A DNA stretch of 64,000 nucleotides from Pseudomonadota bacterium (GTDB lineage Bacteria; Myxococcota_A; UBA9042): contig SXRM01000025.1 of NCBI GenBank assembly GCA_005792545.1, positions 1 to 64,000 on the forward strand, in the 5' to 3' direction. The position numbers and the translations under genes are program-made. This document shows, one piece after another, positions 30,997 through 60,022 of this stretch (position 1 is the stretch's first letter; the number at the start of each line of letters is the position of its first letter). Below the pieces are notes generated by a model, which was not told where the DNA came from, did no database searches, and saw nothing but the letters and a program-made list of their open reading frames with translations.

Positions 30997-31060
30997 ACAA
31001 CTGCCCAATTCGGGCTACCTTTTGCGTTTTGCCCGCCTGGCGCACCGCGCGGGAAAAGGA

Positions 31061-34000
31061 ATGCGCACGCAAGCAATGTGCCATCAACCACTCGGCTTCT
31101 TGTTCGCCCGTCGCGCGATGGCCCTCGCCGTGGCTACCGCCCTGGTCGCGCTCGGCGGCTGTCTCGCGACCGAATTCGTGCCAGAGGACGCCGTCGGCGC
31201 AGGCACCACTGCCGATAGCGCGGTGCCGCTGGACGGCGTTGCCGATACGCCCGCGGCCGAAACGGTTGTGGACACCGCCGCGCAGGAGACCAGCGAAGAA
31301 GTCGCGGATGCGGCTGCGCCCGACCTCGATGGTGCCGTCGAAGTCGAGGCCGAGGCGGCCGACGATGTGCAGGAAGTCGACGCCGGGGCCGATGCACCGA
31401 CGGATGTGGCGCCGAGCGACGCCGATGTCGTTGTGCTGCTGCCCCTTGGCAGCACCTGCACGGCGGACGCCCAGTGCGAGTCCAAAGAATGTGTGACAGT
31501 CACCGGTTCGCCCAACGTATGCAGCAAGCCCTGCACCGGCGACTGTCCGGCCGGCATGCGCTGCGGTCTGGACATCGCAACCAAGTCGATCACGGTTCCG
31601 TACTGCCTGCCGCTGCCCGACGACCTATGCAAGCCCTGCGAAGTCGATGACGACTGCAAGGCCAAGGCCTGCGTACCGCTGACCGACACCAAGGAGTCGC
31701 TGTGCGGTGTGGCGTGCGGCGCTGGCGGCACCTGCCCGGTCGGCTTTGTGTGTCAGCAATTCAAGTCGGGCGACGTCTGCGTGCCACAACTGAGCACCTG
31801 CACCTGCAACGTGGCGCAGTTGGGCAACGCCTGGTCGTGCCAGACCAGCACACCGGTCGGCAAGTGCCTGGGCAGCCAGATCTGTACCGACGGCGGCTGG
31901 ACCGCCTGCAGCGCGCCGCTGCCGATCCCCGAATTGTGCGATGGCCAAGACAACGACTGCAACGGCCTGACCGACGAGACGTACACCACGCTCGGCTCCT
32001 CGTGTGGTTTGGGCGCCTGCGCGGGCGGCAAGCTCGTCTGCGCCGACAGCAAGAAGGCGGTGGTGTGCTCCACCGAAAAGAAAAAGCCGACCAAGGACAT
32101 CTGCAATAACGCCATCGACGACAATTGCGACGGCAAGACCGACGAGGGCTGTCCGCCCAAAGACAGCGACAAAGACGGCACCCCCGACCTCGGCGACTGC
32201 GGACCGTATTTGAGCGAAATGCACCCCGGCGCGACTGAGCCCTGTTGCGGGGCGATTCCGCTGAGTGGTCAGCCGACGCTTATCGACAGCGATACGACCA
32301 GCAAGGCCTGCGACCTCAATTGCGATGGCAAGGTCATTGCATGCGCAGCCGCCGACCTGGACAAAGACGGTTTTCTCGCGCCCGAGGACTGCAACGACAA
32401 AGAGCCCACCATCAACCCCAAGGGCAAAGACAAGTGCGGCGACGGCATTGACCAGGACTGCAAAGACGGCGACAGCGTTTGCACGCCGCAAAACGACCAG
32501 GACAGCGACGGCTGGCCTGAGCCTTTCGACTGCGAGGACTCGACCGACAAGATTTCGCCCGGCGCCAAAGAACTGTGCAACGCCATCGACGACGACTGCG
32601 ACGGCGTCACCGACGACGGCAATCCCGGCGGCGGCGGACCTTGCGGTGCCACCGGCGGCGCATGCAAAGCCGGCACACTGGTCTGCACTGTCGTCGAGTC
32701 CAAGAAAGTGGTGGCCTGCATCGACGCGGTCGCCGGCGAAGCCGAGACCTGCAACACCGTCGACGACAACTGTGACGGCAAGACCGACGAAAACTTCGTC
32801 GATTTGGGCCTGGGCGCGACTTGCGATACGGACGACAGCGACTTTTGCTCCAACGGCATCAAGACTTGTCAGGCCGATGGGCTGTCGCTGACCTGCGCCA
32901 GCGAAAAGATCTACGACATCGTGGAGAGCTGCAAAGGGCCGGGCCAGGGCAACAACGTCGACGAAGACTGCGATGGCCTGACCGACGAGAGCTGCTACGC
33001 CAGCGACATCGACGGCGACGGCAGCGTAGCGCCGCAGGACTGCAACCCCAGCGACTCGGGCTACTCGCCCAAGGTGCCCAAAGAGGCGTGCTGCGACCCG
33101 GCGCTCGGCAGCGGCCCCGAGGCGTTGGCCAAGTGTGACAAGAACTGCGACGGCCAGATCGGCACCTGCGACCCGGCCGACAAAGACTCGGACGGCTTTG
33201 TCGCCGACGACTGCAACCCACAGGACCCCGCCAGCTATCCGGGCGCGCCCGAAAAGTGCGGCGACGGCATCGACCAGGACTGCAAAGACGGCGACATCGA
33301 CTGCGGCGCGATCAACGATGAGGACGGCGACGGCTACGACAACGAGGTCGACTGCAAGAAATTCGACAAAGAGGTGTTCCCCGGCAACCCCGAGGTCTGC
33401 AACGGCAAAGACGACGACTGCAACGGCGCCACCGACGACGGCAATCCGGGTGGCGGCGCGGCGTGCGGCTCGAACATCGGTGCATGCCAGCCGGGCGTGA
33501 CGGTTTGCACCAAGGTCAACTTTCAGGCGCAGGTGCTGTGCGTGCCCAAGAAGGGACCGCAGCCCGAGTTATGCAACGGCCTGGACGACAACTGCAATGG
33601 CAAGACCGACGAAGTCTACGCCAAGCTGGGCAAAGCCTGCGACGGCCCCGACGCCGACGGCTGCACCAACGGCACCTGGACGTGCTCGACTGACTTCAAG
33701 AAAGAAGAGTGCGTCAACGAGTCGGTCACCGACCTGTACGAGCTGTGCAACGGCCTGGACGATGACTGCGACGGCAAGACCGACGAAGAACTCGCCTACC
33801 TGGGCAAGACCGTCGGCCAGGACTGCGACGGCTTTGGGCAGTGTGGTCCGGGCAAGGTAGTGTGCTCGCCTGAGCTGCTGGTGCCGGTGTGCTCGACCGA
33901 TTACTTCGGCACCACGCCAGAGTCCAAGGCCGAGACCTGCAACAAGGCGGACGACGACTGCGATGGCCAGACCGACGAAGACCAGACGTTTGGCGGCAAG

Positions 34001-36988
34001 AAGCTCGGCGAGTCGTGCGTCGGCGCAGGCGCCTGCTCCACGGCGACGGGCAAAGTCGAGTGCGCGGCCAGCGGCAAGGCGATTTGCAGCGTCATGCAAG
34101 GCGGCAGCAGTTTTGCGGGCAAGTCAGAGTCCTGCGACGGCGTCGACAACGACTGCGACGGCCACGTGGACGAGGGCTTGAAGATCGGCGACTCGGCCTG
34201 CAAGAAGGCCGGCGTGTGCAACCAAGCCAATGTGGTGGCCAAGTGCGTTGCCGGTACCTGGGACTGCTCGTACAACGGCGTGGTCGGCTATCAGCCGGAC
34301 AAGGAGTACAGCTGCGACGCGCTCGACAACGACTGCGACGGCAAGACCGACGAGGATTTTGAAGTCGGTCTGGCCTGCGACGGCACCGACAGCGACAAGT
34401 GCCAGAACGGCACCTGGCTGTGCAGCGAAGACAAGGGCGGCAAGGTCTGCATCAACGAAACCAAGACCGACATCGCCGAGTCGTGCAACGGCAAGGACGA
34501 CGACTGCGACGGCGAGACGGACGAAGGCTTTGACACCGGCGTGCCCTGCGATGGCCCCGACGGCGACAAGTGCAAGAACGGCGTCAACATCTGCACCGCC
34601 GACGGCAAAGGCGTGACCTGCGGCGACGAATTCAAGAAAGACATCGCAGAATCATGTAACGACCAGGACGATAACTGCGATGGCGTTACCGACGAGGGCT
34701 TTACCTTCGGCACCGACAACATCGCGCTCGGCGCAGCTTGCGACGGCCCCGACAGCGACAAGTGCAAGCACGGCACGGTGCTGTGCGCCGCCGACGGCAA
34801 GTTCGCAGTCTGTGGAGCGGAAAGTAAAGAGAACATTGTCGAAGTCTGCAACGCGGTCGATGACAACTGCGACGGCAAGACCGACGAAAGCCAGACCTAC
34901 TCGGGCAAGGCTCTGGACGCCAGCTGCACCGGCACCGGCGCGTGCGGCGCGGGCACCGTGGTGTGCTCACCGGTCACCTTCAAGGCGACGTGCTCGACCA
35001 ACCCCGATGCGTTCCTCATCTTCAACGGCCAGGAGCTGTGCGACGGCCTGGACAACGACTGTAACGGCAAGATCGACGACAACCTGAGCCTAAGTGGCGT
35101 CCCGCTCGGCGGCAATTGCCCCGCAGTCGGCGAGTGCGCCGCCGGCAAGGTGCAGTGTGGCAGCAGTAAGCAGGTGGTGTGCAGCACCCAAAAAGGCGGC
35201 GGCGTCGACCAGAGCAAGGCCGAAACCTGCGACGGCAAGGACAACGACTGCGACGGCAAGACCGACGAAGACCTGACGGTGGTCGACTCGACCTGCAAAA
35301 AAGTTGGCGTCTGCGGCAACGACAAGCTGGTCGCCGTGTGCGCCAACAGCAAGTGGACCTGCGACTACAGCCAGGTGCCCGGCTACAGCGAAAAGGAGCT
35401 GTGTGACGGTCTCGACAACAATTGCGACGGCAAGACCGACGAAGGCTTCGACATCGGCGCGCCGTGCGACGGCCCTGACGGCGACCAGTGCAAGACCGGC
35501 GCTTGGACCTGCAAGCCCGACGGCAGCGACCACCAGTGCAACAACGAGGAAGAGACCGACAAGCTCGAGGTCTGCGACGGCAAGGACAACAACTGCGACG
35601 GCAAGACCGATGAGGGCTTTGCTTACGGGCCCGACAAGCTGGCGCTCGGCGCCAGTTGCGACGGCTTGGGCATCTGCGGCCCCGGCAAGGTCATCTGCGG
35701 CAAGAACCTGACCGCCACCTGCAGCACCGACCCCGATGGCACCAGCCCCGGCAACAAAGACGAGGTGTGCAACACCATCGACGACGACTGCGATGGCACG
35801 GCCGACGACGGCTTGAAGTACGGCGGCCTCGCCGTGGGCGCCCCGTGCTCTGGCATCGGCGAGTGCGGCAACGGCAGTGTGGTGTGCAACAGCAAGTTCG
35901 TCGCCGTGTGCTCGACCAACCCCGATGGCCCCGACTACGACCAGAAGATCGAGCTGTGTAACCTCAAGGACGACGACTGTGACGGCCAAACCGACGAAGA
36001 GCTGGACCCCAAAAAGTCGACCTGCAACCAACTGGGCGTTTGCGCCACGGCGCTCAAGGCCACCTGCAACAAGGGCGCATGGAAGTGTGCGTACGACATC
36101 ACGCTCGGATTCGAGTTCAAAGAGACTGTGTGCGACGACCTCGACAACGACTGCAACGGCGTGACCGACGACCCGTACCCGACCAAGGGCAAGCCGTGCG
36201 ATGGCGACGACGCTGACCTGTGCAAGAACGGCGCGTTCGTGTGCACCGACAGCAAGAAAGACGTGGTGTGCAAGGAGACCGGCCCTGGCGGTGCCAGCGC
36301 GGAAATCTGTGACGGCAAGGACAACGACTGCAACGGCCAGACTGACGAACAGTTCACGACGCTTGGCCAGGCCTGCGACGGCCCGGATACCGACCTGTGC
36401 CCCAACGGCGTGCTGATTTGCAGCAGCAACGGCAGCGGCGTGGTCTGCGGCAGCGAGTTCATTCAGAATTTGAAAGAGCTGTGCGACTTCCAGGACAACA
36501 ACTGCGACGGCAAGACCGACGAGGGCTTGGGCCTGGGCGACAAGTGCGACGGACCTGACAGCGATCAGTGCCAGTTCGGCACCTGGACCTGTGGCAGCGC
36601 CGGCAAGGTCGTGTGCGACAACGAGTCTAAAGTCGGCATCACCGAGATCTGCAACAACCTCGACGACGACTGCAACGGCAAGACCGACGAGAGCTTTGGC
36701 CAGAAAGGCCAGAAGTGCGACGTGGCCACCGACATCGACAGCTGCTTTACAGGGTCGTTTCAGTGCACAGCGCAGGGCGCTCTGGCGTGCATTGGCGACA
36801 TCGCATGCTCGGGCGGCACGCCTTGCAAGCCGTCCACAAGCATCAACCAGCTGGACCAGTGCATCTGCGGCACGCAGACCTGCTCGGTCGACCAGGGCGA
36901 CCAGTGCGGCGGCGACAACAAGTGCACCTGCAAGGGCGGAGCCGCCTGCGTGGCGCCCAAGAAATGCACATCGACCGGCTGCAAGTAG
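31061..36988 (+). CDS. Giant Cys-rich repeat lipoprotein 2 (MopE-like metal-binding motif repeats)
   Basis: MRTQAMCHQPLGFLFARRAMALAVATALVALGGC lipobox (start 31061 or 31076); acidic tether; about 24 copies (by eye) of [E]xCxGxDDDCDGKTDE. Confidence 0.9.
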   Translation: MRTQAMCHQPLGFLFARRAMALAVATALVALGGCLATEFVPEDAVGAGTTADSAVPLDGVADTPAAETVVDTAAQETSEEVADAAAPDLDGAVEVEAEAADDVQEVDAGADAPTDVAPSDADVVVLLPLGSTCTADAQCESKECVTVTGSPNVCSKPCTGDCPAGMRCGLDIATKSITVPYCLPLPDDLCKPCEVDDDCKAKACVPLTDTKESLCGVACGAGGTCPVGFVCQQFKSGDVCVPQLSTCTCNVAQLGNAWSCQTSTPVGKCLGSQICTDGGWTACSAPLPIPELCDGQDNDCNGLTDETYTTLGSSCGLGACAGGKLVCADSKKAVVCSTEKKKPTKDICNNAIDDNCDGKTDEGCPPKDSDKDGTPDLGDCGPYLSEMHPGATEPCCGAIPLSGQPTLIDSDTTSKACDLNCDGKVIACAAADLDKDGFLAPEDCNDKEPTINPKGKDKCGDGIDQDCKDGDSVCTPQNDQDSDGWPEPFDCEDSTDKISPGAKELCNAIDDDCDGVTDDGNPGGGGPCGATGGACKAGTLVCTVVESKKVVACIDAVAGEAETCNTVDDNCDGKTDENFVDLGLGATCDTDDSDFCSNGIKTCQADGLSLTCASEKIYDIVESCKGPGQGNNVDEDCDGLTDESCYASDIDGDGSVAPQDCNPSDSGYSPKVPKEACCDPALGSGPEALAKCDKNCDGQIGTCDPADKDSDGFVADDCNPQDPASYPGAPEKCGDGIDQDCKDGDIDCGAINDEDGDGYDNEVDCKKFDKEVFPGNPEVCNGKDDDCNGATDDGNPGGGAACGSNIGACQPGVTVCTKVNFQAQVLCVPKKGPQPELCNGLDDNCNGKTDEVYAKLGKACDGPDADGCTNGTWTCSTDFKKEECVNESVTDLYELCNGLDDDCDGKTDEELAYLGKTVGQDCDGFGQCGPGKVVCSPELLVPVCSTDYFGTTPESKAETCNKADDDCDGQTDEDQTFGGKKLGESCVGAGACSTATGKVECAASGKAICSVMQGGSSFAGKSESCDGVDNDCDGHVDEGLKIGDSACKKAGVCNQANVVAKCVAGTWDCSYNGVVGYQPDKEYSCDALDNDCDGKTDEDFEVGLACDGTDSDKCQNGTWLCSEDKGGKVCINETKTDIAESCNGKDDDCDGETDEGFDTGVPCDGPDGDKCKNGVNICTADGKGVTCGDEFKKDIAESCNDQDDNCDGVTDEGFTFGTDNIALGAACDGPDSDKCKHGTVLCAADGKFAVCGAESKENIVEVCNAVDDNCDGKTDESQTYSGKALDASCTGTGACGAGTVVCSPVTFKATCSTNPDAFLIFNGQELCDGLDNDCNGKIDDNLSLSGVPLGGNCPAVGECAAGKVQCGSSKQVVCSTQKGGGVDQSKAETCDGKDNDCDGKTDEDLTVVDSTCKKVGVCGNDKLVAVCANSKWTCDYSQVPGYSEKELCDGLDNNCDGKTDEGFDIGAPCDGPDGDQCKTGAWTCKPDGSDHQCNNEEETDKLEVCDGKDNNCDGKTDEGFAYGPDKLALGASCDGLGICGPGKVICGKNLTATCSTDPDGTSPGNKDEVCNTIDDDCDGTADDGLKYGGLAVGAPCSGIGECGNGSVVCNSKFVAVCSTNPDGPDYDQKIELCNLKDDDCDGQTDEELDPKKSTCNQLGVCATALKATCNKGAWKCAYDITLGFEFKETVCDDLDNDCNGVTDDPYPTKGKPCDGDDADLCKNGAFVCTDSKKDVVCKETGPGGASAEICDGKDNDCNGQTDEQFTTLGQACDGPDTDLCPNGVLICSSNGSGVVCGSEFIQNLKELCDFQDNNCDGKTDEGLGLGDKCDGPDSDQCQFGTWTCGSAGKVVCDNESKVGITEICNNLDDDCNGKTDESFGQKGQKCDVATDIDSCFTGSFQCTAQGALACIGDIACSGGTPCKPSTSINQLDQCICGTQTCSVDQGDQCGGDNKCTCKGGAACVAPKKCTSTGCK

Positions 36989-40287: not shown

Positions 40288-43200
40288 CTACCAGCCCTTG
40301 CGCCCGTTGCCGGTGCCCGGCTGGCCATAGACGCCGTTGCTGACTTCCAGCTTGTAGTTGCCGCAGGTCGGCGCGCCGCTCGGGCGGTACACCTTGATGT
40401 AGAACCACGCCGAGTCGTCCTTGCAGGTCGTCATGTAGTAGCCGCGCGGGAAGCACACGCCGTTGGTGTTAAACTGCATGCAGTACGGATTACCACCCGT
40501 CGACCAACCGGTGTTGCTCTGGTCGAAGGTGTCACCCGTGCTGCACGGGCACTCGCCGTATTCACTCCACTGCCGGCTGGGCTCGCCGCCGCTGGCACCC
40601 TTGAAGTTGGTGAACCAGTTGAAGGACGATTGACCACAGCAGGTCTGGTTGCCGGCAACCGACTCGTAGCGCTTGTCCTGGTCACTGTTGAGCGACGGCT
40701 TGCCTTCCGGTCCTGGCGGGCCAGGCAGCGGACTCACCGGACAACTGCCGCGGTACACGTCCAGGCCCAAGCCGCCCGGTTGTTTGACGAACGACACGCG
40801 CAGGTTGAACTTGTCGCATACCGCATAGCCACCCTCGCCAAGGTCGGCAGCGTAGACGCGGTACCAGTCCTGGTCGGTCGTCACCACGCGACCTTCTGGG
40901 CTGTACACCAGCTTGCCGCCGTCGTTGAGCGACGAGTCGAGCAAGTAGGCTTGCGAGCAGGAGTCGTTAGGCTCGAACTGGTCGTTGCCGTTGCACTCGC
41001 AGCCGTCGCTGAACGCGGCGTTGAGGTCGTAGAAGCCGGTCGCGCACGACTGGATGATGCACTGCCCCGCCTGGCACTTGAACACGGCGTTCTTGTCCAG
41101 CGGGCAGCCGTCCGCCGCCTGCTCATCGGTAATCGAGTTGCAGTTGTCGTCGAGCTTGTTGCACAACTCCTTGGCGCCAGGCGACATGCTGGCGTCGTTG
41201 TCGTTGCAGTCCAGGCCGCCCTTGCTGCAAGTCGGCGCAGTGCCGATGGTGACCATGCCGGCATCGCAGAAGTCGTCATTGTCGTCGTCGCAGCCTTCGT
41301 CGACCGTGTTGTTGCAGTTGTTGTCTTTGCCTTCGCACTGTTCGGCGAAGCCGGGGGCGCACGTCGAACACGCATCGTCGCAGTCGGTGCTGTTCTTGGC
41401 GGTGAACAACGACAGCGAGCGCGAGCAGACGTAGCCAGCAGTCGCCGTGGCGGAGTCGTCGGCCCACTTGCCGCTGCCCTTCATGTACACGAAGTCTTCA
41501 GGGTTGTCCGGGCCGCCAGTCGCGGTGCCGTTGGCGTAGTAGACCTCAACTTCGTTGAGCTGCCAGCCGCTGTACTGGTAGCTGAAGTAGTTCATGCAGT
41601 TGCCGTTGCCGCACGAGCCGACCGGGCAGTAGTAGCTGTAGCCGAAGTAGGTGTAGCCGGACTTCATGCTCGAATCCACATGCAAATCGTGACCGCCACC
41701 GAATGTCGGGCCGTAGCTTGGGTGGTTGTAGGTACCGTAGTTCTGGCCCGCGCAGTTGCCGCCCCAGTCACTCTTGAAGTTATTCTTGAAGCTGAACAGC
41801 CAGGTGCCACCCGGGTTCTGGTAGCTGCCGCCGCCAGCCCAGCTGCCGCTGTTGTAGCCGCCAAAGATGTTGCCGCTGGTGTCGCGCAGAATCGACAGGG
41901 TCTTGGTGTACTGGTCACACTTGCTGTGGAACGTGTTGCTGCTAAAGCCATCCTGGGTGCCGCGGTAGCACAGTGACCATTTCTGCGCGCCGTTGCCGTA
42001 CCAGGTGTTGAGCTGGGACTGCTGGGTCGGCGTCAACATCGTGGTCCCGACAAACGCCGCGCCGGCCGGCTCGTTGCTGTCCCAGTTACTGTAGGTCATG
42101 GTCTCGTTGCTGACCCACTTGAACACGCCTTCCTGCACGCTGTCGGACAGGCCTACCCAGACGTTGCCGGTTACGCCGGAATCGTTGGCGAGCTTGCGCA
42201 CGTAGCCGTTATCGCCGTCGCTGTAGATAGACACCAGGTCGCCGCCCCAGGCCTTGCAGTCGGCGCGAGCGTTGGCGTAGGTCGCCGGTGTAGCGACAGC
42301 TTTGAATTGCTTGCCCGACTCGCACAAGCACTGGCTACTGTTGACGCCGTAGCCGTCCTGGTCGCCGTCGTAGTAGTAGTTCGAGCAGCCGGTGGCGCCC
42401 GCTTCGTCGACGACCTTGTTGCAGTTGTTGTCGGCGCCGTCGCAGACCTCTTGGGTAGCCGGGTTGACCTTGACGTTGGTGTCGTCGCAGTCGCCACCAC
42501 CGTACACACAGCCACTGGTGAACAAGTTGGCGCAGAACACCTGACTGCTGTTCGGCGACACGCAGTATTCCTTGCCGTTGAACGCCATGTTGTTGATGTT
42601 GGTCGGGATGTAGAACTGGTCTATGAAGTTAAGCGTGGCTTTGTTGTAGCGGTAAACGTTGCCGTCGTACCGACCCAGGTAGAAGTAGTTGCCGACCACC
42701 GCCAGACCGCCGTATTGCGTGGTGTCCACGCCGCCGTTGAGCGTCTGCTGCTTGATGAGGCTGCCGTTGTTCTTGTCGAGCACCCACATGGTGTGGCCCC
42801 AGTACGGCATGGCGTAGACGTACTTGTCGTCGGCGGTAACGGCGCTGACATAGTTGCCGACGTTGGTGCTCCAAATCGTGGTCGAACTCTTGTCGGCCTT
42901 CTTCTGCACCGTGTAGTAGTGCCAGTTGGCAATGTAGTACGAGCCGTCGGTGTCGCCCCACAACTGCATCGAGTACGGGTGACCGGTGTCAAACGTACCC
43001 AAGAACACGCGGTTTTTGTCGTAGCGATAGACCGTGGACGAACCCCAGTTCGGGTACCAGTACTCGTTGTACTTGGGCGAGAAGCCGCCGCCGTGCGAGT
43101 AAGTCTCCATGGTCACCGGTGCGCCGTTGTACTTGCCGGGCCCAGGGTCGGGCGTGCCGACGACGGTCATGCCGCTGTCGCACCAACCGTCCAGGTCGTC

Positions 43201-46200
43201 ATCGCAGCCTTCGTCTTGCAGGCTGTTGCAGTTGTTGTCAACGCCGTCGCACATCTCCTTGATGCCCGGGTTGACGCCCTTCTCCAGGTCGCTGCAGTCG
43301 TCGCCAAACGTACAGGCACTCGGGTTCAGGTTGTAGCAGTACACCTGGTTGTTGTTGGCCGAGATGCAGTACTCCTTGCCGTTGAACGCCATGTTGTAGA
43401 TGTTGGTGGCCACCGTGAATTGGTTCTTGAGCTGGCCAGTCATTTTGTCGTAGCGGAACACCGCGCCGTTGTACCGGCCCAGGAACAAGGAGTCGCCGAC
43501 GGCAGCCAGGCCGCCGTACATTGTGGTGTCCTGGCCGCCAGTCAAGGTGATCTTCTTGACCCCCTGGCCATTGGCCTTGTTGATGACGTGCACTTCCATG
43601 CCGTAGTAGACCATGGCATAGACAAAGGTGTCGTCGGCCGTTACGGCGCCCGTGGTGGTGGGCATGTTGTACTGCCACAACTGCGTCGCGCCCTTGTCGC
43701 TCCACTTCGACACCGAGTTGTAGCCCCAGTTGGCGGTGTAATAGGTGCCGTCGGTGTCGCCCCACAGTTGCATGATTTCGCCGCGCCCCGAGTTGAATGA
43801 CCCGAGGTACTGGTAGCTGGAGTTATAGCGGTAAATCGTGGCGCTGGCCCAGTTCGGGTACCAGTATTCGTTGTACTTGGGCGAGTAGCCGCCGCCGTGC
43901 GAATACGTCTCCATGGTCACCGGCGCGCCCTTGTAGGTCGGCGGCATGGTCAGGCAGGTCGAGCTGACCAGGTTCGTCTTGGGGCACGCCGCATTGCTCG
44001 TGACCTTGAGCTTGGCGTCGCAGTAGCCGTCCTTGTCGGCGTCGCAGCCTTCGTCCACCACCAGGTTGCAGTTGTTGTCTTTGCCGTCGCAGACTTCCGT
44101 CGGGGCGGTGTTGCCGGCGATGGTGTAGCAGTGGACCTGGTTGCTGTTGTTCGAAATGCAGTAGTCGCTGCCGTTGAAGGCCATGTTGTAGATGTTGGCC
44201 GCTGTGGCGAACTGGTCGATGAAGGCGCCGGTTGCCAAATCATACCGATAGACCTGGGCATGGTCGCGACCGACGTAAAGCACGCCGCCGTACACGGCCA
44301 TGCCACCATTCATGCCACCGTCACTGCCGCCTGACAGGTTGATGGTCTTGACCTGGCCGCCGGTGTTCTTGTCGAGCACCCACACCTGCATGCCCGAGGA
44401 CCGCATGGCGTACACGTTGTTGGCGTCGGCGGTCACACCGCCGGCGGTCGATCCGATATTGAATGACCACACCTGGTTACCGCCCATGCCCTTCCACTTG
44501 TTGATGGTGCTGTAGCCCCAGTTGGCGGTGTAGTAGGTGTCGTCGCTGTCGCCCCACAGTTGCATCATCTGCGGCAAGCCGCTGTTGAAGGTGCCCTTGT
44601 AGTTGTACTGCTGGTCGTAGCGGTAGATGGTGTAGCCGGCCCACTCGGGGTACCAGTACTCATTGTAGGTCGGGCTGTAGCCGCCGCCGTGGGACCGGGT
44701 TTCCATGGTGATGGGAGCCCCCTTGTACACGCCCGAGATGGCCTTGGGCACGCCGGTGCCGGAGAACTGCTTGGGATCGTTGTCGTCACAGTCGCCGCTC
44801 TGCAGGGCCGAGTACTTGCCGCTGACCGAGCAGCGGCACTCAAAGGCTGTGGTGCCCTGGCCGTCGCCGTCGTTGTCGAAGTACCACTTGGAGCAGCCGA
44901 GCGCGCTCAACTGATCCGACGCGCCGTCGCAGTTGTCATCCTCCGGCGTGGCGCAGTTCTCCTTGGTCGTCGGCGCCGGATTGATCGACGGCGTGTTGTC
45001 GTTGCAGTCGCCGCCACCGCCGGTACACGTGCTCGGGGTTCCAACAATAGTCAGACCCGCTTCGCAGTAGTTGTCGTTGTCGTCGTCGCAGCCGTCGTCA
45101 ACCAGGTTGTTGCAGTTGCTGTCGGCGTTGTCGCAGATTTCGGTAGCGTTGGGGTACGTCGTGCTCTTGTTGTCGTCGCAGTCATCGCCCTTGGTGCAGT
45201 TCGAGCCAGCGACGTTGTAGCAGTATACCGTACTGGAATTATTCGAGATGCAGTACTTGTCACCGGTGAACGACATGTTGTAGATGTTGGTCGCTGCGCT
45301 AAACGTACTGACCAACGGAACCGACTTGCCGTACAGCGCGTAGCACCACACCGTGCTGCTGTTGTTGCTGATGCAGTACTCGCTGCCCGTGTACGCCATG
45401 TTGTAGATGGTGGCCGCGACGTTGAACGAGTCCAGGAACTGGTAGGTGTTCTTGTTGTAGCGGTACACCGTCGAATCGCGACCGACCAGCAGCTTGTCGC
45501 CAACGACCGCCAGGCCACCATGACAGGTGCTGCCGGTGTTGCCACCGATAAAGTTGTAAGTCGCCACGACCGAGCCGTTCGACTTGTTGAGGCGCCACAC
45601 CTTACTGCCATTGGCCGGCACCGCGTAGACATAGTTTTCGTCCGCGGTGACGCCGCCCATGGTCTGACCAAGGCTTGACGTCCACAAGCGGGTACCCGAC
45701 TTGTTCGCCATCTTGGTCACGGTGCCGTAGCCCCAGTTGGCGGTGTAGTAGGTGCCGTCGGTGTCGCCCCACAGCTGCATCATTTGCGGCTGACCCGAGT
45801 CGAAGGTGCCAAGGAACTGGTACTGCTCGTTGTAGCGATAGACCGTGGTGCCCGCCCACCCGGGGTACCAGAACTCCTTGTCTTTCGGGCTGTAGCCGCC
45901 ACCGTGCGAGCGCGTGTCCATGCTCACGGCGCCGGTGTAGACCGGGGGCCAGATGTCGCCGGTGGTCATTTGGTTCAGCGAATAGTGGTACACGGTGCCA
46001 GAGCCGCGCCCGACCAGCAGGTTCGGACCGCCAACGGCCATGCCGCCGTAGATGGTCTCACTGCCACCGCCGCTCAGCAGGAAGGTGTCGATGAGTGCGC
46101 CTGTGGCCTTGTTGAGGCGACGCACGCGCATGCTATCGGCGCCAAGGGCATACACGTAGTCCGGGTCAGCCGTAACTGCGCCCGCGGATTCGCCCATGTT

Positions 46201-49200
46201 GTACGTCCACGCTGTGGTGCTGCCCAGGTCCACCTTCTTGGTGATGGTGTTCATGCCCCAGTTGGCGGTGTAGTAGTAGCCGTCAGTGTCGCCCCACAGT
46301 TGCATCATCTGCTGCTGGCCGCTGTCAAACGTGCCGATGAAGCTGTAGTTGCTGGCGTTATAGCGGTACACGGTCGAACCGGACCACGACGGGTACCAGA
46401 ACTCCTTGGCTTTCGGGCTATAACCACCGCCGTGGCTCTGGGTGCTGAAGTTGACGACCGAACTGGACTTGGGCGGCCACAGAATCGAACTCGAACACGA
46501 CTGGCCACACACGTTGCCATACACCTTGTAGCTGTACACGGTGCTGCTGTTGGCCGAAATCAGGTAGTCGGTGCCGTTGAACGCCATGTTGTAGATGTTG
46601 GTCGCGACATTGTAGCTGCCGGTGTTGTTGAGCGTATTGGCATCGTAGAGCCACACCACACCGTTGCCGCGACCGACGAGGAAGGTATCGCCGACCTTGG
46701 CGAGGCCGCCGTAGATCCAGTCGCCAAAGCTGCCGCCGTTCAGATTGAAGGTCTTGATGAGCGCGCCAGTGCTCTTGTTCAACTGGTGCACGGTGTAGCT
46801 GTAGTCGGCGCGCATGGCGTAGACGTAGTTCGAGTCAGCCGTTACGGCGCCCGCGTAGTAGCCAATGTTGTAAGTCCACAGGATCTGATTGCTCAGCGCC
46901 TTGCGCTTGGTGACAGTGTAGTAGCCCCAGTTGGCGGTATAGAAGTCGCCGTCCGTGTCGCCCCACAGTTGCATGATCTCGCCCTGGCCGGCGTTGAAGG
47001 TGCCTTTGCTCTGGTAGTTGAGGTCGTAGCGGTAAATGGTGCCGCCCGACCACTCGGGGTACCAGTATTCCTTGTAGAACGGGTTAAAGCCGCCGCCGTG
47101 CGACCGCGTGTCCATGCTGATGGGCGAACCCTTGTACTGCGGCGGCCAGATCGCCTGATCCTTGCACGAGGTCAACGACTTGGTGCACTTGGCCGTATCC
47201 TTCAGGATCATGGTGTTGTCGCAGTACAGGTCGCCGTCGTCGTCGCAGCCGTTGTCCGCGCCATTCTTGCAGTCGTTGTCGAGGTTGTCGCAGACCTCGG
47301 CCTGCCCCGGGTTGACGCTGATGTCCGTATCTTTGCAATCGCCGCCGATATTGGTGGGCAGCGTCTTGCTCTGGGTGCATTGGCAGGTGCCAGTGCCGCC
47401 GCCGTAGCCGTCAAGATCCTCGTCTGCATACCAGGTGGTGCAGTTGGCGGCGTTGCTCTCGTTGACGATACCGTTGCAGTTGTCGTCGGTCGCTGTGTTG
47501 CAGTCTTCGCTGGCGGCCGGATTGACGTTCTTATCGCCGTCGTTGCAGTCGCCACCACCGTTGGGGCAGCTGGCCGACAGCGGTGAACCCAAACCGTCTT
47601 TGGCGCCAGTCGAGTAGGTCGGCGAGGTCGAGCCAGCGGACACCAGTGTGTTGGCGTCAATGCGGATGCGACCGTTGCCGCCGGCGCCGCCGGCTGTACC
47701 GCAGTTGTTGCCGTCTTGCAGCTGGCCAGCCGCGCCGCCCAAAGCGCTCAAGGTGCCGCCCGAGATGTCCACCTTGTTGCCGCGGACCCAGATCGCACCA
47801 CCCGCGCCGCCGCCCGAGGCCCCGCCGTCGCAGTTATTCTTCTGCCAGCCGCCCGCGCCGCCATTGGCCGTGACTTTGCCGGTAATGATGACGTCGGGTG
47901 CGTCAAAGCGCACCACACCGCCGCCGCCGCCGCCGCCCGCGCCCGTGGCATTGTAGGCCGAGCCGTAACCGCCCGCGCCGCCGCCCGAGCCGCCGATGAG
48001 CTTGTCTTGGTCGATAGAGCCGTAGGTGCCGCCGCCCATGCCCTGGCTGCCGTTGGCCGAGCCGCCGTTGGCGCCCGCGCTGCCGTGACCGCCGCCGCCA
48101 CCGCCGGAGCCGCAGCCGCCGCTGAAGTTGTAGATGCCTTCCTTGCCGGGACCAGGGCCATTACCGGGGTACGCGCCGCTGCTCGAGTTGGCGTAGATGC
48201 CGTAGCCGCCGTCGTAACCGCCCGCGACGCCCTTGCCCGGTGTGCTCTGCCCGCCCAGACAGCCGTTGCTGCTATCGGTGGCGTCGGTGCCCGCGCCGCC
48301 GTCGACGACCAGCGTGCCCTTAATGTCAATCTTGTTGCTGGCACGAATCAACAGTGGCTCTGCGTTGCCGACCACCGTAACAACCACGCCCGCCGCAATG
48401 GTGAAGTTCTTGAAGTTGTAACCCTTGGCCGTCAAAGTCTGGTTGGCCGTCGCGTTGAAGTCGCCGTCATTGCCGTTGCCACAGGTGGCGCATCCCACGC
48501 TGCCGTTGCAATAGCCGTCCTTGTCAAGGTCCGCACAGACTTCGTCCACGCCACCCGCGCAGTTGTTGTCGATGCCGTCGCAGGCCTCAATGGCGCCTGG
48601 ATTGATGGCCGCGTCCGCGTCTTTGCAGTCGCCGCCGCCCTTGATGCACACCGCCGGCGTGCCGATCGTTGCCATGGCGCTGGTGCAATAGCCGTCATTG
48701 TCGCCGTTGCAACCTTCGTCCTTGCTGCCATTGCAGTTATTGTCGAGGTCGTCGCAGTTTTCGGCCTTACCCGGGAAGATGTTCTTGTTGCCGTCGTCGC
48801 AGTCGTCCTTGCCCAGCTTGCAAATGGCCGGGGTGCCGACCACGGTCTTGCCGGCCGCGCACCATTGATCGCCGTCGGCGTCGCAGGTCTCGTCGGTCGC
48901 GGCGTTGCAGTTGTTGTCCAAATCGTCGCAAGACTCGCCGCCGCCCGGATTGACCGTGGACTTGGTGTCGTCACAGTCGTTGCCGCCGTTGGGGCAGATG
49001 GTCGGAGCAGGTACCGCGGTTTCCATGGCCTGATCGCAGTACTTGTCGCCGTCGTCGTCGCAGCCTTCGTCCACGGTGCCGCCGGTGACGATGAGGTAGG
49101 CCTGGAAGGTGACATCGGTCGATCCGCTCGCCAATGCCGACCAGCTGAACGGCGAGCTAGGTGCAATGTGAGCCGCGCCCTTGGGATACTGGTTGCCAGA

Positions 49201-52200
49201 GCTTTCCAGGATGGTCAGGCCGGTGCTCGACGCCTTCCAAACGAATACCCATTTCTCGCCCGCTGCGACCATGGGCTTGGCGACCGAGGTGAAAGTGTAC
49301 TTGGTGTAAACGCCGGCGCCGTTCTGTGCGACCGACACCGGTCCAATGGTTTCCACAGGCGTCGGACTGGTGATGGACACCGGCAGCGTCGTTGTCTTGA
49401 AAATGGTCAGCGTAACGTTCTGCGCGGTCGGGGCATTGAAGGACACCTCAATCTTGGCGAAGCTGCCAGGCAGGGTCCAAACAACTTCCTGTGCCAGGTA
49501 GTTGGTCAGGCTGTTGTTGGTTCCGGTCGCAAGATTGGTCTCAACCGCGCTCGGCGCCGCGCCGTTGCAGTTGTTGTCCTTGCCGTCGCACAGCTCGAGT
49601 TTGCCTGGGTTGGTCTGACCGTCACCGTCATTGCAGTCACCAGCGACTGTCGCGATGTTACTGCCCGAAGCGACGCACGCGCACACGGCCGGGCCTACAC
49701 CGTAGCCGTCTTTGTCAGCGTCCAGGTAGAAGTTGGTGCAGTTGGTCGCACCCGCGTCGTTCAAGCTGCCGTTGCAGTTGTCGTCGTAGGACGTCGCGCA
49801 GTTTTCAGGCACGCCAGGCTTGACCGCGCTGTTGGTGTCGTCGCAGTCGCCGGCCGCCACAGCCTTGAAGGCGCCGTTGGCCGCGCACATGCACTGCTTG
49901 ACGTTGGCGCCGTAACCGTCGCTGTCGCCATCGTAGTAGAAGTCGATACAGCCCGCGCCGCCGGTACCGTTGAGGTTGCCGTCGCAGTTGGTGTCGACTC
50001 CGTCGGCGCAGCTCTCAATGGCACCCGGATTGATGGTCTTGTCGGTGTCCTTGCAGTCGCCGCCGCCCTTGGGGCAAGTGCTTGGCGTGCCGATGGTAAT
50101 CTTGGCCGAGTCACAGTAGCCGTCGCCGTCTTGGTCGCAGCCTTCGTCAATGACGCTGTTGCAGTTGTTGTCGATACCGTCACAGACCTCGGTCGCGCCG
50201 GTGAACACGTTGCTGTTGCCGTCGTTGCAGTCGCCGCCCTGAGTGGTCTTGTAGGTGCTGTTGGCGATGCACAGGCACTGCGACTCACCTGTGCTGGACA
50301 CCTGGCGCAGCCAGGTGACGAAGGTGCTGTTGGCGCCACCGTTGGGTTGGCCAGCCGACGGACTGCCGTCGAGCGCGTAGTTGGCGGCGTTGTTCAGCCC
50401 GGTGATGTCACCGGTAAAGGCGATAGTGCCGCTGGCACCGTTGCTGGGTGCGCTGCCGAGTTGCGTCTTGGCCGCTGCGCCCAGTGCGCCCGTAGCGGCG
50501 CCGTAACGGATGGAGTCAATGCTGGTAGTGCCCGCACTACTGGTGTCGATCCAGGCGACGTCGGACGCTGCAAAGTCGCCGCCCGCCGCGGTCACGGACA
50601 CCAAGCTAGTGTCAAAGAGCAGCGTCAGGTTCCAGTCTGCACCGGCCGGATTGTAGGTCAGATCCTGCGCGACGCCCGCGCCCTGACCGGCGACCGTGAT
50701 GATGGTGCCGGCTTTGAGCGTGGTTAGGTTCAGCGAACCCAACGCCAGCTGGTACTTGCCGAGCTTGGCTGCGCCATCTGTGGCGGAGTCGCCGAAGTAG
50801 TACGTGGCCAGTTCCGTCGCGGTGATGTCGGCCGTGATCAGGAACTCGATGAACTCGTTGCCAGTAACACCCGGAAAGCCATTGGTATTGCGGCGGATCT
50901 CGTTTATCGCCACTTTCTTGAAGACCGTACTGCCCTTGCCGTAGCCGTCACCGTCAAAGTCGGCAAAGAAGATCTGGCAGTTGACAGCGTTCGGATCGTT
51001 GGTGCTGCCCGAGCAGTTCTCGTCGATGGTGTTGCCGCAAACTTCCTTAGCGCCAGGGTTGATGGTGTTGTCGTTGTCGGCACAGTCGCCGCCGCCCTTG
51101 CTGCAGGTCGGCGCCGTGCTCGGAGTCGACATGTTGCCGTCGCAATAGTCGTCATTGTCGTCGTCGCAACCGTCGTCTGCGGTGTTGTTGCAGTTGTTGT
51201 CTTTGCCGTCGCAGACCTCGTTGCCGGCTGGGTTGACGTTCTTGTCGGTGTCATCGCAGTCGCCGCCGCCCAGCGGGCACACGTTGGGTGTGCCGCTGAC
51301 GGTCATCGCCTTGGTGCAGAACTGGTCGCCGTCCGCGTTGCAGCCTTCATCGACTTTGGTGTCACAGTTGTTGTCGATGTTGTCGCAGATCTCGGTCTTG
51401 CCCGGCACCATGTTCGGGTTGGTGTCGTCGCAGTCGCCCTTCTGGCTGGCCGTATAAGGCGAAGCCGAGGCGCATTTGCAAGCCACCAAATCCAAGCCAT
51501 AGCCATCTTTGTCGTTGTCATAGAAGTAGTTGGTGCAGCCGGTCGAGCCGTCTTCGTCGACGTCGCCATTGCAGTTGTTGTCGAGCGTGTCGCACTTCTC
51601 GGCCTGACCAGGGGCGACGGAGGCGCTGGCGTCGTCGCAGTCACCTGATAGCTTGGCCTTGTAGGCCCCAGAGGCCTGGCACAGGCACTGTGCGATGTTC
51701 AAGCCGTAGGTGTCGCTATCGGCGTCAAAGTAGAAGTTGATGCAGCCAATTGCGTTGGGATCATTCTGCGAACCGCTGCAGTTGTCGTCTTTGAGGTTAC
51801 TGCACACTTCTTTGGCGCCCGGGTTGACCGAACTGTCGTAGTCGTCGCAGTCGCCGCCGCCCTTGATGCAGGTGCTTGGCGCCGGATTGCTGACCGTCAG
51901 CGCCGCATCGCAGTAGGTGTCGCCGTCGTCGTCGCAGCCGTTGTCTGCTTTGCCGTCGCAGTCATCGTCGAAACCGTCGCACACTTCACCGACTTTGCCC
52001 TTGTAGACGTTGGGCTTGGTGTCGTCGCAGTCGCCGCCGCCGTTGGGACAGATGGTCGCGCTGCCGCCATAACCCATGCTGCCGTCGCAGTAGCCGTCCT
52101 TGTCATCGTCGCAGCCCTCGTCGATGCTGCCGTCGCAGTTGTCGTCTTTGTCGTTGCAGGCTTCCGGAGCGCCAGGGTTGATGGTCTTGGTGGTGTCGTC

Positions 52201-55200
52201 GCAGTCGGCGCCGTTGGTCGAGGTGAAGGTACCCGCTGTCGTGCACATGCACTTCTTGGCGCCGGCACCGTAGGTGTCGCCATCACCGTCGGCGTAGAAT
52301 GCGTTGCAGCCAATGGCGTTGACATCATTCTCGCTGCCGTTGCAGTTGTCGTCCTTGCCGTTGTTGCAGATTTCAGCTTTGCCCGGGTTGACGGCGGCAT
52401 CGGTGTCGATGCAGTCGCCGTTGCCATTGGCGCACACGGTCGGGCTACCGATGACGGTCATGAGGCTGTCGCAGAACAGGTCGCCGTCGTCGTCGCAGCC
52501 GTTGTCGACCTGCTTGTCGCAGTCGTTGTCGGCGTTGTCGCAGATTTCCTTGGCGTTGGGGTTGATGAGCTTGTTGTCGTCGTTGCAGTCGCCCGGGTTC
52601 TCCGCCGAGTACTGACCGACCGGCTGGCAGTAGCATTTGTAGGCGTTGGTGCCGAACTTGTCGCCGTCTGCATCGAAGAACAGCGGCGTGCAGTCGATGG
52701 CGCCTGCGTCGTTGTTGCCGCCGTTGCAGTTGTCGTCGTCTGCAGTCTTGCAGTTTTCTTGCATCCCCGGGTTGATGTTCGAGTTGCCGTCATTGCAGTC
52801 GCCACCGCCGAGTGGGCAGGCCTTGGGCTTGCCAACGGTGAAGATGCCGCTGTCGCAGTAGCCGTCTTTGTCTTTGTCGCAGTCTTCGTCGATGACGCCG
52901 TCAGAGTTGTTGTCCTTGCCGTCGCAGATTTCTTTGCCTTCGGGATTGATCGCCGGGTCGAGGTCGTCGGTGTCGCCCGGACCCTTGGGGCAAACGTCGA
53001 GCGAAGCCGTGCCGGCGCCAGCGGAGCAGGTGGCGACCACAGCCATGGTCTTGACAACGCCGCCGCACGGGTCGCCGAGCACCGTGTGCCAGTTGATGGT
53101 CGAACAGCTGGACTTGCCGATGCAGTTGCTGGCGATGTAGTTGATCTCGCCGGCGGCGTCGCAGCTGCCCTTGGTAAAGGTCGGGCAGGTGCCGGTGACG
53201 GTGCCGTACTCGGCGTACTTAATCGCGGTGATGGTGCTGCCCGCCGGGCACGCCAGGGTCAGGGTCTGGCCGTCTTTGGCGCTGTTGCAGACGTCTTTGC
53301 CCGCGGCCGGCGGATCGTAGGCCAGGCCTGTGTCGCAGTAGTCGTCGGCGTCGTCGTCACAGCCTTCGTCGATCTGGCCATTGCAGTTGTCGTCGACGGC
53401 GTTGCATTTCTCGTCGATGGCCGGGTTGACACCGGCGTTAGCATCATTGCAGTCGCCCGGTTGCTTGGCGCTGACCAGGCCGTTGCCGACGCACATGCAC
53501 TTGAACGGCGTAGTGCCGTAGGCGTCGCCGTCGATGTCGGTGTAGAAGTTGCTGCAACCTAGCGCGTTGGTGTCGTTGTTGCTGCCGTCGCAGTTGTCAT
53601 CCTCGGGCGTCGCACAGGTTTCTTGCATGCCCGGGTTGATGGTCTGCTTGGCGTCGTTGCAGTCGCCGCCCTTGGTGGCCTTGAAGGTGCCCGACGCGGC
53701 GCACAGGCATTTGCTGGCGCCGGAGCCGAAGGCGTCACCGTCAAGGTCGGTCCACAACTTCGTGCAGCCATTGGCATTCTCTTCGTCTTGCAGCGTGTTG
53801 CAGTTGTCGTCTTTCTTGTTGTTGCAGATCTCAGCGAGGCCCGGATTGACCGTGCCGTCGTTGTCGTTGCAGTCGCCGGTGCCGTTGACGCAGATCGGCG
53901 GCTTGCCGACCACCGTCAGGCTCGAGTCGCACCACGCGTCACCGTCGTCGTCGCAGCCTTCGTCAATGGTGCCCGAGCAATTGTCGTCGATGCCGTTGCA
54001 GATTTCGACCTGGCAGGCCGGGTCACCGCAGCACGACGTCTTGTCGAGGCAGTCAATGAGCGTATTGGCGTTGTCGTCTTTGCCGTTGGTGCAGTCTTCG
54101 CCTTGGCCGCAGGTGATCGACAGGTCGAACTGGGTGGTGTCGTTCGGGCCAGCCGTGTCAACGACCACGTAGTACTGGATGTTGGCGCCGGCGGCGAAGG
54201 TGATGCTCTTGGCGTCGTTGGCGATGCAGCCCAGCGGGTCGCAACCCTTGCCGGTGGCCTTGAGCACGAACAGGCGGGTCTTGGTCGGGTTGCTGACGTT
54301 CTTGAGCTCGACCGTGACCGGCTTGCCCTGGGTGGCCTTGAACCCGTACGACACTTCCTTGCCCAGCCACTGGTTGGCCAGATCGCACGAGTAGACGCTA
54401 GTCGCCTGGGTGCTGTCGCCGCCGTTGTTGACCAGCTTGGTCGGCGCGGCGCCACAGTCCAGATTGGTCTGCGCGGCGCACAGGCAGGTGTTGTCGTTGG
54501 TGCATGCGCCGGTCGCGCACTTGTCGGCGGTGCAGGCGTTGCCGTCGTCGCAGTCGGTGTCGGCTTTGCAATCCGGGAAGCCATTGTTGAAGAAGGTGAT
54601 GATGCGCTCCATCATCACGGTCTGGGTGTCAGTTCCGCTGGCGATCACGCCGCCAAATGGCACCGACATACCGATGGTGCGGTACTTGGCGGTCGGATTG
54701 TCGTGGCCCACTGCAACCCAGAACTTCTCGATTGCGTCGTTCTTGAGCAGGTTGCGGGTCTTCTGGACCGCCAGGTTGCCGTCGATCTGGTCGTTGACGT
54801 TGTTGTACGCCAGACCTTGATCAAAGGCCCAGGCCTTGGGCGTCGGCGGCGAGGTGCTGGTGTCCGCGAACGCGGCGTAGCCTTTCAGTGGCCCGGTGAC
54901 GCCGTTTGGTGCCGAGTCGAGCACACCCTTGATCTTGAAGAACGAGTGCAGCGTGGTCGGCGTGTCGAACATGAAGGTGTCGCCACCTTCCATGTAGACC
55001 TTGCCGCCGCCGGACAGGTAGGCCTTGAGCGGAGCGACCTCGCCGTCGAGGAGGACGTGGTTGTCCGGGTAGACGCCGAGTGTAATGAACACACCGTTGA
55101 ACTTGGCCAAATCTGGATACAGCGACAGATCGCTGATGATCTGGCCGAACTGACCCTTGGAGGTCAGCGCAGCCTTGATGGCGTTGGCGCTGGCCACTGG

Positions 55201-58200
55201 GACTTCACTGGGCTTCCAGATGAGGTAGCCGCCCTGGTAGGTGACCGTGACCTTGAAGGTGCACAAGCCCTGCAGGAAGCCGTCGGTATAGCGCACGGTG
55301 ATCGTGTGGTCGCCGACGTCGGTGAGCTGCGTTGGCTGGATGACGACGTTGCTGTTCCAGGTTTCGTCGATCCAGTAGTACAGGGCCGATGAGACGCTGG
55401 CAAAGCTCGGGCCGCTGACCAACTGGAAGCTGATGATATCTGCGGCATCGGGATCAATGACCTTGATCGGCACGTTGAATTTGGTGCCCACGGCAACGCT
55501 TTGGTTGGCCGGGCAACCGTTCTTGGTCACCGGCGGTCCGCCCTTGACGATACAGACGTTGTCGACGGCGAATTCGTCGAAGTTCAAGCTACTGGAGGCG
55601 GCGACGCAGAAGGCGATGCGCAGGCCGTTGGAGCCGGTCAACTCAGGCGGCAGCTTGATGGTTAGCTTCTCAGGTCCAAGCTGGTCCGTGGTGGCGATTG
55701 GGCCGTCGAGGATCGCCGCGGTGTTCCAGTCCACCGAGGCGCCGCCGAGCGAGCCGCGGATGGTCAGTGTCGTGTTGGCGATCGCCGGCAAGAACGACCG
55801 ATCGAACTGCATGGTGATGGCCGCGGCGCCGGCTGCTTGAACCACCGGCGACTGCAGGCAGGTCAGGAAATTGGTCTTGGTCGGTGTCCAGGTCAGCCGC
55901 GCATACTGGTCCGGGCCGAGCGGGCCGTCTTTGGCGATACCCCAGTTGGAGGCGGCCGTGCCGGCGACGTCACCCGGCAACCAGCCCATCGACTTGACGG
56001 TGCCTGCGCCTTCAAAGTCTTGACAATACGACAGGTTGACCACGCACGGAGTCTTTTCGACCGCGGCGCACTTGAGCGCGCCGTCGCCCTGAGCCTGGCA
56101 CTTGCCCACCGCGCACGAGGTATTGAGGTACGCGCAGTCCACGGCCTCGGTGGCCGGGTCGCAGCACAAGGTCTGGCCAGCTTCGCTCGCCGTGTGCACG
56201 CATTCGTTGAAGATGCAGTAGTCGTAGGTGCAGGGCTTGCTGTCGTTGCAGTCCAACTTGTCGAGGCAGCAACCGACGATCGCCGTGTGGGTCTGCTTGT
56301 AGACGCCGCCAGTCAGGACGCATCCGTCGGCGGTGCAGACGTTACCGTCGTCATAGCTGCTGGCCTGCTCGGGACTGCACGCGTTGCAGCCAGGCGTGGT
56401 CACGTAGGCGCAGGCGCCCTTGCCGGCCACGATGTTGCTGCACTTGTCGGTGGTGCAGCCGTTGCTGTCGTTGCAGTCGGCGTCGTTGGCGCAGCAACCG
56501 TTCTTGGGCACCGTGTGGCGGCACTGGTTGTTCAGGCAGTACTCGATCGTGCAGGCATTGTTGTCATTGCAAGCGGTCTGGGCGTCGGTGTCATCCAGGC
56601 AGCACTCGTTGATCTTGGACGACGAGCACTTGTTGTCCGAACCGCACTTGTCGAGCGTGCACGGGTTCTTGTCGTCGCAGTAGGCGTCGTTGTCGCAGCA
56701 CAATGCAGCTGGTTGGGCCACGTTTTGGCACTGGCCACAGCCGTCAACGGTGATGCATTTGTCCTGCGTGCACGGCTTGGCGTCGTCGCAGTCGAGGTCA
56801 ACCTTGCACTTGCCGGTGGCGAGCGTGTGCTTGCACTGGTTGAAGCCGTCGCAAAAGTCCTGGGTGGTGCAGTCGTTGTCGGCGCACTCTTCATTGGTAG
56901 CGCAGCAGCCGGCCTGGCCGTTGCTTTGGAATTTGCAGGTGTTCGAAGTCGCCGCGAGCGTGGCGTCGATGCCCCAGCTCTTGCGCAGGTAGTTGAGCAC
57001 CGCGTTCTTGTCGTCATCCGACAGCGGCTTGTCGTAGTACAGAATCTGGCCGATGTACGCGTGCGAGTCCTCAGAGATTTCCGACGAGCCCACGAACAGC
57101 ACCTTGGTGCCCTGGCCAATGGTGTTGCCGTCGGCTGTCGACTCGACGTAGCTCGACCCGCCGCCGACCGCGGCGTAGGTGCGCTTGGTGCCGGCGACGC
57201 GGCCGAACAGGATGTAATTGGTGTTCTCGAGCAGCGTCAGCTCGGCGCCGTTGTTGTCGTTGCCGCTCTGGAAGTGGGTGGTGCCCGGCTGCTTGGCGGC
57301 GTTCTGCTCGAGCGACCAGTCCATGTCGCGGTTACCATGGTGGGCGATCGCGCCCCAGCCGTCGGACTTGCGCCATTGAATGACCGTAAAGACTGTGACC
57401 TCAGTCGTCAGCGGGAAGCCCGCGGTCGCCATCCGGCGATCTGCGCCGTCAAAGTCGATCGCCGGCAGACCGTTGATGAGCTTGTCGCCAAACATCGGCG
57501 CGGGGCCGTTGGGCGTCAGGTGGCGGCCCTTGCCGCTCAAATCTTTCCATTCGGTGACCTTGCCGGTGCCGTCTTTGACGATGCTCAGGGCATTGCGCGC
57601 GTCGTAGTGCGCGGCGAGACCTGCCGTGACCGGCAGTGCGCCAGCGCCGAGATCGCAAGTGTCGAAAGTACACGGGTTGCCGTCGCTGCACTCGGCGTTG
57701 GACTCGCAGCACAGCGGCTTGGTCAGGTCCTTGCTGTAGACGCAGACCTTGTTGACGCAAGCGTTAATGGTGCACAACTTGCCGTCGTCGCACTCGGCGT
57801 CCGTGTCGCAGCAGCTGGGGTCGGTCTTGCTGTACTTGCAAGTCAGCGCCGCGTAGTTGCAGGTGTCCAGGGTGCAGAACTTGTTGTCATCGCAGTCCGA
57901 GATCGTTGTGCAGCAGCCGGCGATCTTCTTATAGGTGCACAAACCGGCAGTCTGGCCTTCGGCGATTTCGCAGGCGTCCAACGTACAAGGGTGGTTGTCG
58001 TCGCAGTCAAGAGTCTGCTGGCAGCAGTCTTTGACCTTGAGGTTTTTGCACTCGTAATTGTCGCAAAAGTCGTTGGTGCACGGCTGCTTGTCGTCGCATT
58101 GGGCGTTGGTGCCCTTGATATCGCAGCACTTGGGCTTGGTGGCGTCCTGGGTATGCACGCACTGAGTCCAGCCGCCCATGTTCTTTTCGCACTTGTCGAT

Positions 58201-59316: not shown

Positions 59317-60022
59317 CACAGTCCTCTTGCCGATGGCGCTGTTCCCCGCAGTTTGACCACCAAGTTGCGGCCGCTGGAGCGGCGGGCGTGCTTGGACCGA
59401 AATAGCCAATGCGCAAACTGAATTTAGTCTGCGCTGGGTAGCGGCCGTAGGCGCCATGCTTGAGTTGGCGGGCGAGCCGTCAAGGCAGGCGCCAGCGCAA
59501 GGCATCGAGGTGGTGAAACGGTGAGAAATCCTCCATCGTGTCGCCCTGTTGCCAGGGTGTGCGTGCGCATCGCCGGTCGGGCGGCGGAGAGCCGGCCTCG
59601 GGCGAACTGGGGGATCGGGCTTGGGGATCGAAACCGCGACCGGGAAATCTGCCGTGTACGAGTTCGCCAAGGGGGGTTCGCGCTGCGCGTCCCGGCCGCG
59701 GTGAACGGCAAGTGTGCGCAACGTCGGCGGTTTCTCGAGCACGGGCGGCCGTCGACTGGGGGTGGCGGCGGCCGCGGAGCGTGGGCCCTGGTGGGCCCTA
59801 AGTGCAAGGCTGATCAGGCCTCACAAGGGCCATTGCGCGTCCGCGTAGGACGACGCAAGCCCTCAACCGGCACCCTAACAAAGCGAGGCATGCAACGCAA
59901 GCAAAGGTCGTGGCGGCGCCGGCAAATTGCGCACGGCTTGCAGGGTGCAGGGCGGCGCGACGGGCGCTGGTACGCATCTGCGCTAACATTTTTTCACAGA
60001 TTGAAAGGGTGCGCGGCGGTTG

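Follow-up and report, generated by a model that had tools for sequence, protein, structure and literature searches.

Insertion of one protein domain into another, including into exposed loops, is a known process. In C-type lectin-like domains (CTLDs), calcium site 2 includes the asparagines of the EPN and WND motifs. The TLD fold is most familiar from oxidation-resistance proteins of animals. The studied members of the TLDc family are intracellular proteins of eukaryotes, and papers on the family handle TLDc as a eukaryotic domain (PMC5614904, PMC8608904). A search of 5.39 million open-access papers found none that joins TLDc with the C-type lectin or treats bacterial TLDs. Each of the domains considered here is already known and what appears to be new is their nested combination; the preliminary description of the locus had known of no earlier report of it, and no description was found in the open-access literature.

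The window (the whole stretch of DNA that was analysed, 64,000 nucleotides of contig SXRM01000025.1) was found to contain the ORF 'giant 3' at 40288..59742 on the minus strand (6484 aa counted from the first GTG), a scaffold of MopE-type repeats with many inserted domains. Tandem CDxxD..NPG..E.CDG.DNNC repeats identified it as a MopE-repeat protein, and PF11617 matched both of its halves (13 and 18 stretches; E 3.8e-75 and 8e-76, Pfam). The likely true N-terminus was found at 59122..59193 (minus strand), where a GTG start at 59193 was followed by the lipoprotein signal VSRVRLATARSALVGLAIAALAAC ending in the lipobox ALAAC, the cysteine of which is Cys207 of the ORF (read by eye and with a regular expression). 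The C-terminal region (residues 6225-6484; 40291..41070, minus strand) was found to be conserved in the giant family, with a homologue in 43 of 53 relatives. This region of approximately 260 aa had no Pfam match and is a candidate new family; its homologues (L116-L145) often terminate giants.

The repeat array of giant 3 (41290-59124, minus strand) was interrupted by many unlike domains on which Pfam was mostly silent. A SUEL lectin insert was matched by PF02140 (E 1.1e-15, Pfam), and jelly-roll, LamG-like and LTD-like inserts, a Gly-rich beta-helix-like stretch and seven propeller-like modules of about 200 aa were named by eye. Elsewhere in the window, the ORF at 2035-8703 (minus strand, 2222 aa) contained at least 12 Dictyostelium-type CTDC repeats (PF00526, E 1e-92), the name of this family coming from slime moulds, and the ORF at 30794-36988 (plus strand, 2064 aa) contained MopE-type repeats (PF11617, E 3.1e-90). 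Immediately upstream of the giant lipoprotein gene, cdsA-, uppS- and lspA-like genes were found at 60023-63832 (minus strand).

Residues 5812-6113 of the 6484-aa ORF were found to form a TLDc domain nested inside a CTLD, an architecture that is near certain. The N-terminal half of the CTLD (residues 5812-5892; 42067..42309, minus strand) contained beta1-alpha1-alpha2-beta2 and the WVGL motif, as read from PF00059 and the structure model, followed by the presence of the TLDc guest (residues 5895-6069; 41536..42060, minus strand) and of the C-terminal half with beta3-beta4-beta5 (residues 6076-6113; 41404..41517, minus strand). The preliminary description had proposed a TLD in the long-loop (ligand) region of a CTLD at 41418-42315. 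These coordinates were correct within a few bases, the strand, unstated there, was found to be minus, and all eight of the peptides quoted were found in the quoted order in a single minus-strand frame. Both the nesting and its place were borne out, PF07534 lying between halves that jointly fill positions 2-106 of the 107 of PF00059, and the alignment with uninserted CTLDs putting the insertion point after the EP of the EPN motif and before the -ED- that precedes beta3.

The guest was matched by PF07534 with 79.2 bits (E 4.5e-22, profile positions 7-167 of 170, Pfam), above the curated cut-off of 24.5 bits. The modelled guest was found to have the TLDc fold, with a Foldseek match to 7obp (TM by target 0.80-0.84, probability 1.00) and further matches to 7uzg, 6r82 and 4acj; the matches of the middle of the nest were the TLDc structures of NCOA7, OXR2 and Skywalker.

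In the intact sequence, the Lectin_C match (PF00059, Pfam) was placed just before the TLD, reached 47.7 bits and ended at position 78 (2-78/107), which favours the reading that the TLD merely follows a truncated CTLD and that the likeness of the C-half is accidental. With the halves joined and the guest left out, PF00059 gave a full-length CTLD match of 62.4 bits (2-106/107, E 7.7e-17). A control HMM for which only uninserted CTLDs were used (41, taken from related genomes) scored the joined halves at 108.8 bits for the window copy and its N-half alone at 82.1 bits, whereas shuffled C-halves (n=300) gave a mean of 83.4 bits (SD 1.7, maximum 92.3) and 467 other 38-mers of giant 3, used as the C-half, reached at most 89.8 bits. 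The joined score exceeded every shuffle in all six nests described below, and the C-half alone scored 17-25 bits. Since the joined score lay above all shuffled and substituted C-halves, the nesting is not due to chance. With these scores and the invariant cysteine of YVC against it, the reading as a truncated CTLD is refuted at the level of sequence and is hardly credible.

An AlphaFold2 model of the nest was built from 27 sequences (alignment A2), a check that the preliminary description had suggested, and reached a pLDDT of 85.7 with a pTM of only 0.64. It contained CTLD beta1, alpha1, alpha2 and beta2 followed by a confident TLD and by CTLD beta3 to beta5, the strands of the C-half being in fitting order with a pLDDT of about 82-90 except for the last residues. 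The modelled N-half was matched by Foldseek to mannose receptor CRD4, conglutinin and SP-D; only this half of the CTLD was aligned, since the guest leaves a gap before the C-half. The canonical CTLD disulphide would join Cys5829 in alpha1 (42256..42258, minus strand) to Cys6106 in YVC past the guest (41425..41427, minus strand); each of these cysteines was invariant, and both were kept in 47 of 47 CTLDs, including six of six nests, as in a true CTLD. A second cysteine pair, whose members also lie on opposite sides of the guest, was found with both members in 25 domains and with neither in 4, and was split in none (p 4e-5, gapped rows being set aside); it was kept across the guest in the nests of L005 and L010, and the L001-type nests contained neither member. 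The joined scores and the cysteine pairs support the predicted packing of the two CTLD halves with each other.

The CTLD was in turn found to be a guest. Its flanks were the upstream half (42310..42390, minus strand; GCSNYYYDGDQDGYGVNSSQCLCESGK) and the downstream half (41290..41403, minus strand; TAKNSTDCDDACSTCAPGFAEQCEGKDNNCNNTVDEGC) of one MopE-type repeat, which align with unbroken repeats and with empty sites, respectively, in paralogous giants. The hosting repeat of the window thus reads CLCESGKQFKAV-[CTLD]-LFTAKNSTDCDDACSTCAPG, and an empty repeat, for example CLCAKAGLFSATNSSDCNDTCPTCFPG, was found in paralogous or orthologous giants of G001, G003, G004, G005, G006, G008, G011 and G013, the repeat being without the CTLD in at least 9 giants. 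The three levels are therefore repeat, CTLD and TLD. CTLD[TLD] was found to occupy two sites of the MopE-repeat giants, L034 and L035 using another place in the repeat array.

The preliminary description had also proposed a search for homologues with and without the insert. Complete nests were found in a single Myxococcota family, in six distinct genomes (four of the window's genus, namely G000, G001, G002 and G005, and also G018 and G012), with uninserted CTLDs common alongside; CTLDs were found in 35 of 36 genomes, and PF07534 in 16 of 185 relatives by profile search. A search of the GTDB collection named the carriers of the nest as Myxococcota assemblies, lake ones among them (VGRO01000024.1, SHZD01000071.1, CAIXGW010000239.1, JAUIAC010000004.1, CALGHC010000648.1), and the giants that bear it belong to freshwater Myxococcota. 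In a search of 377 genomes across the phylum, no full nest was found outside the family, and the plasmid and phage collections contained CTLD half-matches only and no nest. The truncated CTLD matches L191-L194 of relatives were considered as further CTLDs split by guests and were rejected, being divergent yet unbroken and without guests, so that the TLD is the sole guest seen in a CTLD.

The genome of the window is a fragmented assembly (435 contigs, 77.75% complete), and the nest contig of G012 was also binned in G011, two points that could suggest an assembly chimera or mis-binning. Against this, the six full nests are distinct, come from separate assemblies and are 90% down to 39% identical to the window copy, the frame is open through 6484 codons, and GC and GC3 agree among the guest, the host and giant 3. 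A chimeric origin is already refuted by the separate nests, and its probability is negligible. Cross-binning in the public collection was seen as one contig sequence in two assemblies for L010 and L029 (G012:C551, G011:C648) and also for L035 and L036.

The nest was found to be retained by four congeneric species and by members of other genera, with the insertion point identical in both nest lineages. The dN/dS of the guest was 0.10-0.38 and that of the host parts 0.04-0.57, and in four of five pairs the guest was better conserved than either half of the host. It is conceivable that a mobile TLD came by constructive-neutral insertion into a tolerant loop, with nothing gained over a terminal TLD; insertion into exposed loops is known, and TLDs occupy many positions (C-terminal, in tandem, after propellers, in a jelly-roll). 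The purifying selection on the guest, its retention in these species and genera and the insertion point shared by both lineages speak against a neutral history, which we consider unlikely.

Tree tests of how many insertions took place gave conflicting results. When the nested CTLDs were constrained to one clade, the constrained tree beat the free one (AU p 0.74). The nested TLDs as one clade, a group named before the tree, were weakly rejected (p 0.023), and the nested TLDs with the jelly-roll guests described below as one clade were not rejected (p 0.10). Pairwise identities do not decide between one and two insertions; the nest may have arisen by a single insertion followed by exchange between guests, or there may have been two insertions.

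The host was found to have lost its calcium motifs. The former EPN motif at the guest insertion point (42064..42072, minus strand) now reads E-P-A, and EPN or QPD was found in 34 of 41 uninserted CTLDs. The former WND motif (41458..41466, minus strand) now reads W-A-D, and W[N/S]D was found in 31 of 41 uninserted CTLDs and in none of the six nests. All six nests contained EP[A/M/T] and W[A/V/Y]D, so calcium site 2 has lost both of its asparagines and neither the EPN/QPD nor the WND signature of a calcium-dependent CRD is present. Motif loss goes with insertion (Fisher p 0.0007), but less strongly than this value suggests, because the six nests represent two lineages only and 10 of the 41 uninserted CTLDs also lack WND. 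Since the lectin's own calcium and sugar site is lost, the lectin is now probably a holder of the TLD. It could instead still be a lectin by another route, with the TLD enlarging or gating the binding site and both domains touching one ligand; the location of the guest at the ligand loop and the retention of the E of EP and the D of W-x-D are consistent with such a joint site. The loss of both asparagines in six of six nests and the faster evolution of the host halves than of the guest in the four pairs mentioned above argue against it, and a joint site is improbable.

The statement of the preliminary description that TLDs are mostly eukaryotic needs amending, since the domain is not confined to eukaryotes and homologue searches found bacterial TLDs in several phyla (Myxococcota, Bacteroidota, Planctomycetota, Nitrospinota, Acidobacteria, KSB1, Proteobacteria). 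Their position was found to vary among proteins, being C-terminal, tandem, after propellers or within a jelly-roll. Among the secreted-looking bacterial TLD proteins, some were found to contain PEP-CTERM- or VPLPA-like tails (by eye; L056, L058, L060, L064, L065, L069, L073, L077-L079, L083), others tandem triplets (L055, L062), and in others the TLD followed collagen-like repeats (L042, L048) or hexapeptide repeats (L015, L023, L027, L030).

A second TLD was found to interrupt a jelly-roll domain in two giants that also carry CTLD[TLD] (L034:4261-5364, L035:4267-5364), which makes the TLD a recurrent guest. The jelly-roll host had a weak Pfam match to the InhA-like MAM (E 0.0054) and nothing convincing against the PDB by sequence; its full-length relatives without the insert were found in many genomes. 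In the model of this nest, strands flanked a confident TLD, the overall confidence being medium (pLDDT 73.4).

The family and the fold being shared, the guest might be expected to act like the eukaryotic TLDc, in V-ATPase binding or oxidation resistance. The lipoprotein signal (by eye) and the secreted-type, cysteine-rich repeats of the giant point the other way, as they would put the TLD outside the cytoplasm, where the V1 sector is presumably inaccessible, and a eukaryotic-type role is very unlikely. Work on TLDc has dealt almost entirely with oxidation resistance and V-ATPase control in eukaryotes; in bacteria the domain probably also acts outside the cell, in which case a V-ATPase partner cannot account for the whole family.

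The best explanation overall, which we hold to be somewhat probable, is that the CTLD has turned into a scaffold that displays the TLD on a surface lipoprotein. Giant 3 would be a long surface lipoprotein of MopE-type repeats, with the CTLD in one repeat and TLDc in the ligand loop of the CTLD. The CTLD would still fold, kept together by the disulphide across the guest, and would no longer bind calcium and sugar in the usual manner. It may instead hold the TLD rigidly at both ends and present it at the position of the lectin's ligand site; for display of the TLD by the CTLD as such, we put the chances at about even. Recognition or adhesion outside the cell would be carried out by the surface of the TLD. 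We know of no ligand for any bacterial TLD, and the likeliest class would be glycoproteins or polysaccharides on the cell surface or in the matrix of a partner or prey. A wider and more tentative proposal, to which we lean a little less than to its opposite, is that TLDc is a recurrent guest of bacterial surface giants in the loops of other binding domains, and that here it took over from the lectin, the calcium site of which was dismantled afterwards. If this is true, the nest is a natural replacement of a recognition module, in which a whole new domain was inserted into an old binding site. The locus is unusual in its three-level nest, the empty middle-level sites in paralogues, the many uninserted relatives of the inner level and the degraded active site of the host, and it allows one to ask how a binding site passes from one domain to another. 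It also offers a natural design in which a 175-aa domain is placed in a CTLD loop and the fold would be preserved.

Giant 3 shares with the MopE-repeat (PF11617) giants of Myxococcota the CDxxDNNCN repeat scaffold and the conserved C-terminal region common to the giant family, whereas most of these relatives are without the CTLD[TLD] package at the hosting repeat. The guest shares with the TLDc of OXR1, NCOA7, TBC1D24 and mEAK7 (PF07534) a near-full-length profile match, the C-terminal E-x-E-V motif and the fold; it differs from the studied members in being bacterial, cysteine-rich, inserted inside another domain and, in all probability, extracytoplasmic. The host shares with the CTLDs of mannose receptor CRD4, SP-D and tetranectin (PF00059) a full-length match once the guest is removed, the WxGL motif, the canonical disulphide cysteines and the fold of the N-half, whereas its long loop is split by about 175 aa and its EPN and WND calcium motifs are gone. 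The CTLDs with hypervariable loops that are targets of diversity-generating retroelements likewise use a CTLD scaffold with the loop region as the changing recognition surface, whereas the loop of the nest houses an entire second domain.
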